Below are positions 29,746 to 32,605 of a stretch of 32,605 bases of DNA, one piece after another. Within the stretch, counting starts at the first letter, position 1, and every line of letters starts with the position of its first letter. The notes below the pieces were generated by a model. The model was not told where the DNA came from, ran no database searches, and saw only the letters and a list, made by a program, of their open reading frames with translations. The position numbers were made by a program, and so were the translations under genes. This stretch comes from Rhodothermales bacterium (GTDB lineage: Bacteria; Bacteroidota; Rhodothermia; Rhodothermales; Bin80). The stretch is from positions 1 to 32,605 of the forward strand of contig JAJECV010000093.1 in NCBI GenBank assembly GCA_022821875.1. The letters run 5' to 3'.

Positions 29746-30303
29746 ATGAAGTCTTCAGATATCATTAAAGCGCGTTTAATGGACGCGCAGGATGTACAGC
29801 GTACGATCACTCGGCTGGCCCGGGAAGTCATTGAGGCGTGGGGGCCTGATGGCGGGATTGCGATTGTCGGTTTGCATCGGCGCGGGGTTTATCTTGCGTC
29901 AAGGATACAGGCAATCATACACGAACTGGAGGGGGTGGAAGTTCCAACCGGAACGCTGGATGTGACGATGTATCGTGACGACTTCCGTAAGCGTCCCCGT
30001 ACTGCACGAATACGAACCACCGACATTCCGTTTAACATAGGAAATCAGCATCTGGTGCTGGTGGATGACGTGTTGTACACTGGACGAACTGCGCGTGCAG
30101 CGATGGATGCAGTTACAGATTTAGGGAGACCGTCAAGGATACAGTTTCTCACGCTGATTGATCGGGGACACTATGAATTACCTATTCGCGCGGACATGGT
30201 TGGACGTGTTGTTCCTACGGTTTCCAGAGAGGAGGTACGTGTGCAATTTCGTGAAGTTGATGATCGTGACGGGGTTTGGTTAGTTGACCGGGGGAAGGAC
30301 TGA
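29746..30303 (+). CDS. pyrR: PyrR bifunctional regulator/uracil phosphoribosyltransferase
   Basis: 185 residues, the usual length. The PRPP-binding motif [17 protein letters not shown] (Asp107-Asp108) is intact, as are [19 protein letters not shown] and the C-terminal DGVWLVDR. PyrR binds pyr mRNA with UMP to cause attenuation in Bacillus and also makes UMP from uracil and PRPP. Only 57 bases separate this start from the divergent DUF58 gene, and pyrB overlaps its stop, so there is no room for a classical PyrR attenuator at this locus. It may act elsewhere or mainly as the enzyme. Confidence 0.96.
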
Positions 30304-31253
30304 TGAGAAGTGCAGGTTCACAAACGGACACAAAGCTTCTTCAGCACAGGCATCTACTTGGCCTATCCACGTACAGTGCCGATGAAATTTACCTGATTCT
30401 TGATACTGCGCGTGAGTTTCGTCAGGTTCTGGAGCGTCCGATCAAGCGGGTTCCCACATTGCGCGGGTTTACCATTGCGAATCTATTCTTTGAGCCATCT
30501 ACCCGGACCCGTATTTCTTTTGAACTTGCAGCGAAACGGCTATCCGCAGATCTGGTCAATTTTGGCGGGTCAGGGTCTAGTTTGTCCAAGGGCGAGACCT
30601 TGCGGGATACCGCCCAAAATATTGAGGCAATGAAGGTGGATATGGCGGTGATCCGTCATAGTTCACCGGGTGCAGCGCATTTTCTCACGCGTTGTATTGA
30701 TGGGTGTGTGATCAATGCCGGGGATGGTTCTCATGAGCATCCAACGCAGGCGCTTCTCGACCTGTTAACGATCTCCGAGCACTATGAGTCTTTTGAGAAT
30801 TTACAGGTATCTATAATCGGGGATATTGCCCATAGCCGTGTCGCACGGTCCAATATTTTTGCACTCACAACATTGGGTGCTCACGTCACTGTATGTGGAC
30901 CTCAGACGCTCATGCCGGTTCACATAGAAAAATTGGGGGTCAGGGTTGCACATCACCTTAGAGATGCGCTCCGCGATTGTGATGTAGCGATCACTTTACG
31001 CATGCAGCGTGAAAGATTTGGTGCAAGTCTGGTACCATCCCTGCGTGAATATCATGCCCTTTATGGACTGAGGGCGGAGCATATGGCCCAAAGTCCGAAT
31101 ATGATTGTACTTCATCCAGGCCCGGTAAACCGGGGGGTTGAATTGGATGATGAAGTTGTGGAGCATGAACGGGCGGTGATTCTGGATCAGGTCACCAATG
31201 GGGTTGCGGTGCGAATGGCCGTCATTTATTTACTTGCATCTGAAGCAAAGTGA
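30303..31253 (+). CDS. pyrB: Aspartate carbamoyltransferase catalytic subunit
   Basis: 316 residues, the usual length. It joins carbamoyl phosphate and aspartate, the first committed step of pyrimidine synthesis. The carbamoyl-phosphate motif EPSTRTR (Ser66-Arg70), [12 protein letters not shown], the [11 protein letters not shown] block (His146) and the C-terminal [10 protein letters not shown] are all intact. The start ATG shares a base with the pyrR stop (TGATG at 30301-30305), so the two are translationally coupled. No pyrI regulatory subunit or pyrC follows. Confidence 0.97.
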
Positions 31254-31570
31254 CGAGCTCTTGAGGTTCTTACTCTGAAGATTTGTGCAAGAAGAGTTGT
31301 GTGTGGATAGAGCAGCCCCACATACGGTTCTTTGTGTGCAGGGAATAAGAGACCTATGAGTATTGGCTTGTGTACTACCGGTTTTCGGTGATAGATGGTT
31401 GATAGTAGAAGAGACATTTTTGAATTCACTGACAGATTAGGCATCCCATGACCTTCGGGGATTATGTATATTTTTTGCCGAATGTGTATATTCCTGTGAG
31501 TTCTGTTCGTGCACATTGATTGCATCGGGCGGTTAGAGTATCTCTCAACTAAATTACTAAGTCAAAACAT
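31254..31570. other. Intergenic region upstream of the phase-variable surface gene
   Basis: About 320 bases without a gene. Two TATATT elements at 31467-31472 and 31487-31492, exactly 20 bases apart, are candidate promoters for the gene at 31571. No clear terminator for pyrB is seen. Confidence 0.4.
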
Positions 31571-32605
31571 ATGAAAAACATTACAAAAATGGGGGGGGGG
31601 TAATTCCTTTCTGACTTTTCTGGCACTGCTGACCGTTCTGGTCCTTCCCCGCAGTGCATCTTCACAGGATACCTACTATGTGGACACCGTGAGTGGCGGT
31701 GATACCTGTACTGCAAACGACAATACAACTTCATGTACGCTGACGGCTGCGTTAGACGTGGTGAGCGGCGGCGATGATACGATTGCGATCCGGGTTCGGA
31801 GGGCCGGCGGTTCGGTGACGATTACCGGGGATCACACCATAGACGAAGCGATCACTTTTGCGACGTATCAGAGAGGCGGCGGCGGGCTGGTCAGCGGGAT
31901 GCTGGAGTTTACGGGGACCGTGACTCTGTCGGCGGCGGGTCAATTTACGCCCTACAAAATGGGGACCGTGGAATTGAATGTGCAGTTCAAGGATGTAACC
32001 CTGTCCGTTGACGGCACCAACACGCAGCCCTTTGGTATGGATACGGGGGGACGCTGGTCGATTTCGGGTGCATTGACAACGGGGAATGCGACCATAGACA
32101 AACTGGTGGTAGATGAGAATCTGACGGTTAAGGGGATGGATGCGGATACCGGTGAAGACGGTCATCAGGCACCGACGCTTGTCGTGAAGGACTTAGAGGT
32201 AAAATCAGGCACGTTAACGATAGGCACAAAGGAGGAGGACATGGATTCGACGGTGGAGCTGCGGGTTCCGCTGCAGAAAACCGATACGCTGGTGGTGGAC
32301 GGCATGATTGCGGGCACGGGGGCATTGTGGATTGCGCACCTGAATACGGCGGATGAGCGGGGAGCGGCTGGATTTGACCTGCACCGGACGACGGAGTACA
32401 AGCCGCATGCGACGGATGTGAAGAAGGATATGGGGTGTGCGCAGGTTCGTGGCGGCGGGGAGATCCGGAACGATATCTATGCGATTGCTTCCGGGAATGT
32501 CTGTATCAGTCTGAAGAAGGTTGGCGGGCTCTTTGCGGCGGGAAGTCTTTCCGATGATCAGGATACAGATCAGGATATTACGACGGATCTGATCTTCCGG
32601 CGGGA
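31571..32605 (+). CDS. Secreted CSLREA-type repeat surface protein, frame off at a G10 tract, 3' end outside window
   Basis: As read, the ATG at 31571 gives MKNITKMGGG and then TAA at 31601, because of ten G at 31591-31600. With nine G the frame opens into a clean signal peptide (NSFLTFLALLTVLVLPRSASSQ region) and continues without a stop to the window end, about 345 residues. In that frame no ATG exists upstream, since TGA lies at 31572-31574. The mature start (DTYYVDTVSGGDTC) and SCTLTAALDVVSGGDDTI resemble the CSLREA-type N-terminus of secreted, probably beta-helical, surface proteins. The remaining sequence is rich in Gly, Thr, Asp and Val, with beta-repeat character. An adhesin-like role is an inference. 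It is either an OFF-phase contingency gene or an assembly miscount. Confidence 0.75.
31591..31600. repeat. Ten-G homopolymer in signal-peptide coding region
   Basis: Ten consecutive G, by far the longest G-run in the window, lie directly between the start codon and the hydrophobic core of a signal peptide. The length decides the frame: nine or twelve G is open, ten or eleven is closed. This is the classic position for slipped-strand phase variation. Confidence 0.8.

Follow-up and report, generated by a model that had tools for sequence, protein, structure and literature searches.

Composite A-T-G-TA tracts as candidate phase-variation switches in a surface protein family and in methylase genes of Rhodothermales

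Background

Does a run of ten G residues that breaks the reading frame of a predicted secreted protein a few codons after its start act as a heritable ON/OFF switch, or is it an error of assembly, an expression device or a sign of gene decay? The question is raised by a gene located at the end of a 32,605-nt stretch of DNA, which is the entire contig C139 (referred to here as the window) of a 3.68-Mb Rhodothermales genome (G000) assembled in 147 contigs. Phase variation by poly-G tracts is known mainly from small-genome pathogens. From the letters of the window, a sequence-only reading had proposed that this gene is a contingency locus captured in the OFF state and that poly-G switching could be new in this group of bacteria. 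The suggestion of novelty agrees with the open-access literature, in which our searches turned up no account of phase variation in Rhodothermota or in sponge symbionts.

Two known systems are used here for comparison. In Campylobacter jejuni and its relatives, poly-G/C tracts whose lengths peak at 9 and then at 10 form a phasome that includes phase-variable restriction-modification (R-M) groups such as cj0031 (PMC6321876). In several pathogens, type III Mod methyltransferases, e.g. ModA and ModS, are phase-variable and give rise to phasevarions (PMC3311624, PMC8125046).

Results

Reading frames of the assembled allele

The composite tract A5-T-G10-TA is found at positions 31585-31602 of the forward strand and consists of a run of five A followed by T (31585-31590; four or five A in the paralogues), the G10 run (31591-31600) and the dinucleotide TA (31601-31602). 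The outer ATG (31571-31573) is followed by the codons AAA AAC ATT ACA AAA ATG, by the G-run and by the stop codon TAA (31601-31603) created by the ten G, so that the OFF reading frame (31571-31603) contains ten codons before the stop. The G10 is thus a homopolymer of at least eight G/C inside a coding region, where it occupies codons 7-10. When the length of the G-run was varied, nine or twelve G restored a frame of 334 or more open codons, whereas ten or eleven G did not. In the nine-G version the protein reads MKNITKMGGG-NSFLTFLALLTVLVLPRSASSQ-DTYYVD..., in which NSFLTFLALLTVLVLPRSASSQ is the putative signal peptide hydrophobic core plus cleavage region (31602-31667, assigned by eye) that is out of frame with the start in the C139 allele; the 334 codons past the tract (31602-32603) remain open until the contig ends. 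The first start-type codon of that frame after the tract is GTG 31680, which lies past the signal peptide; no ATG, GTG or TTG separates it from the tract. The inner ATG (31589-31591), located inside the tract, shares the frame of the outer ATG because the A-run is five residues long, and initiation there would also be OFF; in the A4 paralogues it falls in another frame. The frame analysis therefore bears out what had been read from the letters, namely a stop at codon 11 with ten G, an intact signal peptide with nine G in a frame that stays open until the window ends, and the lack of another ATG in that frame, and adds that GTG and TTG are also missing before position 31680. Upstream of the outer ATG, the window (31550-31570) carries AAGT where the paralogues show AAGG or GAGG, 8-10 bases before that ATG, as a possible ribosome site.

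The G-run itself is weak evidence for a switch. It is the longest G/C run in the window (the runner-up is 7), a run of at least ten G or C appeared in about 13% of windows simulated with a first-order Markov model (51 of 400), and G8 matches are no more frequent than in shuffles. Its significance derives instead from its position, from the paralogues and from the genome-wide composite motif.

Protein features and genomic neighbourhood

The protein had been described as CSLREA-like, a label without support in Pfam or NCBIfam: the CSLREA domain gave no NCBIfam match up to E = 1 and no meaningful Pfam match. The longest paralogue, on contig C20, encodes more than 1600 aa and ends in a Pfam DUF4397 domain; the domain scores above the gathering cut-off in the C20 and C141 paralogues, and the C139 copy is cut by the contig end before this region. 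The N-terminal repeat region after the tract has no match in Pfam, in NCBIfam or among solved structures. An AlphaFold model covering the N-terminal part (pLDDT 74) consists largely of beta strands, and a Foldseek search of the PDB with this model produced no significant match (best E 0.04). The C20 copy resembles DUF4397 secreted proteins in its C-terminal domain; the unmatched repeat region that follows the tract sets the family apart from them.

The upstream neighbour is pyrB, encoding aspartate carbamoyltransferase (30303-31253, forward strand, with the motif FFEPSTRT). The site downstream of pyrB (window 31254-32605; loci L212-L219) holds different genes in different species: a convergent pckA-like gene in five of nine genomes, R-M-like genes in two, a secreted protein with a carboxypeptidase-like start in one, and the tract gene in C139. 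No orthologous tract was found at the pyrB site of other species, where other genes are present or, in the sister species G004, the contig ends.

Paralogues and sister-species copies

Close paralogues in the same genome are 93% (C20) and 89% (C136) identical to the C139 open frame; partial paralogues are found at the ends of contigs C70, C73 and C88, and distant ones on C141 and C92. It had been proposed to look for other family members with 5' G-tracts in this genome, and such tracts, at the same codon and with varied A/G lengths, were found at no fewer than five further 5' ends in the same genome and at six 5' ends in G004. Six A/G genotypes occur across the two species. In G000, C139 is A5G10 (OFF), C136 is A4G10 and C88 is A4G12A (both read through), and A4G9, shifted relative to the outer ATG, is found in C20, C70, C73 and the C2/C18 contig tips. 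In G004, C87 (A5G9) reads through, C35 (A4G8) is OFF and C78 is A4G9; C35 and C78 have identical flanks over 110 bp upstream and 120 bp downstream of tracts with G8 and G9, respectively. The A-run (A4 or A5) differs between copies as does the G-run, and the rule of nine versus ten G given in the sequence-only reading consequently holds for the A5 copy in C139 but not in general, as A4 copies need ten. In the commonest family allele, A4G9, the inner ATG is in frame (MGGGNSLL...), and some A4G9 copies scored as "OFF" may be weakly expressed from it. Several apparent copies are located at contig tips, where assembly collapses repeats; contigs C2, C18 and C20 (L035, L069, L070) have a 141 bp overlap at the tract in common, and two loci may have been collapsed into C20.

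These length differences bear on an assembly or consensus error, by which the true count in C139 would be nine G and the gene would be ON and stable. The genome is a metagenome-like draft in many contigs and homopolymers are error-prone, but a mistake at C139 alone would still leave the A4G8, A4G9, A4G10, A4G12A, A5G9 and A5G10 copies of the two-species family, surface and methylase genes repeatedly carry tracts of up to G16, and Illumina sequencing is reportedly accurate on poly-G of similar size in Campylobacter (PMC6321876). We consider such an error improbable.

Tract-free homologues with a stable frame had been regarded as evidence against switching. They do exist (C141, C92), and the C92 paralogue and relatives in other species start with MKHFTKFFGLG, MKNITNFLGVG or MKHFTRLLGGG. 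These starts leave the proposed switch standing, since they support the outer ATG as the probable ancestral start and the tract as a feature apparently derived in one subgroup. The dN/dS values of the C139 open frame against the C20 and C136 paralogues are 0.20 and 0.30, which indicates that the OFF copy is under purifying selection and that the gene is being preserved; the low values could in part reflect gene conversion or earlier ON periods. Decay of one copy in a repetitive family would fit a frame broken at its start in one of many paralogues, but decay hardly accounts for 334 open codons past the tract at a dN/dS of this size, for a sole lesion that lies within the mutable tract, or for sister copies that read through at the same place, and a pseudogene is in our judgement very improbable, the least probable of the alternatives considered.

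A composite tract throughout the genome

The C139 gene is one of a large set of tract genes in its genome. Grouping of 65 tracts by flank similarity produced 21 flank-unrelated clusters of the form A(4-7)-T-G(9-16), usually followed by TA, which is the commonest 3' flank and forms the next two bases after the G-run in 13 of the 21 independent clusters. Among 38 distinct tracts of at least nine G at the loci fetched from the C139 genome, 20 are composite (at least four A, then T, TC or TT), as are six of the seven longest (G12-G16), and the pattern AAAAWYG7 occurs 21 times in this genome as against once for the reversed control pattern. Because the A-run was itself a search criterion for the loci of G002, G004 and G005, its frequency in these genomes is biased; this does not apply to the G000 count (20/38) or to the TA flank. 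The lengths of 54 composite tracts include 33 G9 and 11 G10. One further tract, L055 (G000 C98:12323-12335), is a G13 without an A-run that joins a 640-codon frame to 65 more codons.

The range of the tract was surveyed with AAAATG9 across the class (245 genomes). Matches number 19, 17, 21 and 14 in four species of the genus (G000, G002, G004 and G005; 71 altogether), compared with 15 in the 12 remaining members of the family and 11 among the 229 genomes beyond it. Some species of the genus have none, and the trait is thus gained or lost quickly. Tract length also differs between orthologous pairs of about 91% identity over 1.7-2 kb, which carry G14 (OFF) versus G10 (ON), or G16 versus G11. 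Both mutS and mutL (MutS, MutL) are present in all ten genus genomes; loss of mismatch repair was therefore rejected as the cause of the proposed slippage.

Composite tracts occur in both coding orientations and in all three reading frames, so the form cannot reflect a codon or start-site requirement. This also bears on slippage in RNA polymerase or the ribosome on the A/G run, which would yield a fixed full-length fraction at any tract length and would be a device of expression, not a heritable switch. An A-run beside a G-run could slip in this way, both starts are very near the tract, and the inner ATG is in frame in A4G9; G on either coding strand in three frames makes a common translational signal unlikely, however, and near-identical copies differ in tract length. 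Slippage at the RNA level is, in our estimate, slightly less probable than an assembly error.

Genes that carry the tracts

When G is on the coding strand, the tract is located near the start of the C139 surface family or inside methylase genes; when C is on the coding strand, it lies mostly just before the signal peptide core, e.g. MSHRFPFNLVILPPPH-FSRSLGSLGLLLLVILISPVEALAQ in fn3 proteins. Pfam assigns the methylases to type III-like N6_N4_Mtase, type ISP (PF18135, PF22240) and N6_Mtase/Eco57I-like groups, and the secreted tract genes to fn3, Big_12 (Ig-like) and Calx-beta/autotransporter proteins. Methylase domains are split by the tract, with PF01555, PF18135 and PF22240 matches on either side, and intact tract-free methylase relatives are found at L227, L229 and L231. 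A tract-free Mod relative of the same genus with an intact frame has GAAGAGAATGGAGTAGTT where the tract copies have GAAAAAATG(n)TAGTT. Because tract-free relatives align through the site, the Mod tract formed from the sequence already there, which became uniform and expanded; insertion of an element was rejected on the same alignment.

Short ORFs beside the tracts ("...EKWGGG...") were first candidates for small peptides or mobile repeats and were rejected, being antisense to fn3 or Big_12 genes in which the C-tract precedes the signal peptide. The fn3 genes L039, L041, L056, L177 and L189 look mosaic: their similarity shifts from one relative to another at or close to the tract, which might reflect recombination that exchanges leaders and bodies at this point. 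At L032 (G000 C12:173751-176866), three tandem EcoRI-methylase-like genes each contain AAAATTG(7-9), which encodes a conserved-looking NWGG.MGVPITFLD stretch; we read the G8-9 in these genes as normal codons of a conserved glycine motif and probably no contingency tract, and left it out of the count.

Discussion

We propose, with a probability of roughly 87%, that the C139 gene is a simple-sequence contingency locus, OFF in the assembled allele, and is one member of a phase-variable repertoire ("phasome") that is specific to the lineage and driven by slippage. The sequence-only reading of a contingency locus in the OFF state is upheld in this respect by tracts at the same codon in paralogues and orthologues, by purifying selection and by dozens of similar tracts in gene classes that are typically phase-varied. 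In the proposed model, slipped-strand mispairing during replication would add bases to or remove them from the G-run, presumably in a reversible manner, and length changes of the adjacent A-run would be a probable second source of frame shift. An A5 copy with G9 or G12 would join the start to the signal peptide and produce a large secreted repeat protein, predicted to be exported (ON), whereas an A5 copy with G10, as assembled, would stop translation at codon 11 (OFF); the two states would be heritable. Since composite tracts are placed before signal peptide cores of unrelated surface families and inside type III Mod, type ISP and other methylases, each cell would carry a mix of surface proteins and methylation specificities that is close to random.

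The repertoire resembles the Campylobacter phasome in its intragenic G/C homopolymers (G9, then G10), in tens of loci per genome with frame-dependent ON/OFF states, and in its surface-structure and R-M genes. It differs from it in that an A-run and T stand before the Rhodothermales G-run and TA often comes after it, in that C is on the coding strand at roughly half of the assigned loci compared with 5% in Campylobacter, and in that secreted repeat proteins take the place of mainly glycan or flagellar genes. As in phasevarions, a simple repeat breaks up N6_N4_Mtase (Mod) genes, and its length determines whether they yield the complete protein; in Rhodothermales, by contrast, the repeat is a composite mononucleotide tract located about 175 codons from the start of the gene, and each genome has several Mod and type ISP genes.

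The form is kept across about 20 unrelated gene families on any strand and in any frame, and the junction might therefore be hypermutable through the machinery of the lineage. We put forward, tentatively and with more doubt than confidence, that A(n)-T-G(n)-TA acts at the DNA level as a dedicated mutable element whose junction is made hypermutable by the replication/repair machinery or by a dedicated factor. If this is true, the contingency loci of the lineage would arise through convergence on a single sequence; a separate question posed by the common A-T-G-TA form is which DNA process favours the junction.

Named relatives are MAGs of Rhodothermales or Bacteroidota. One of them, bin80 (MPNB01), was recovered from the sponge Aplysina aerophoba as a Rhodothermaceae bin, and the same study found R-M genes enriched in sponge symbionts (PMC5649159). 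We infer that the C139 organism is likewise sponge-associated, and switching may be of benefit in such a host-associated population. A large repertoire of tract-bearing surface and methylase genes in apparently sponge-associated, uncultured Rhodothermales suggests that random diversification of the cell surface and the epigenome may serve animal symbionts.
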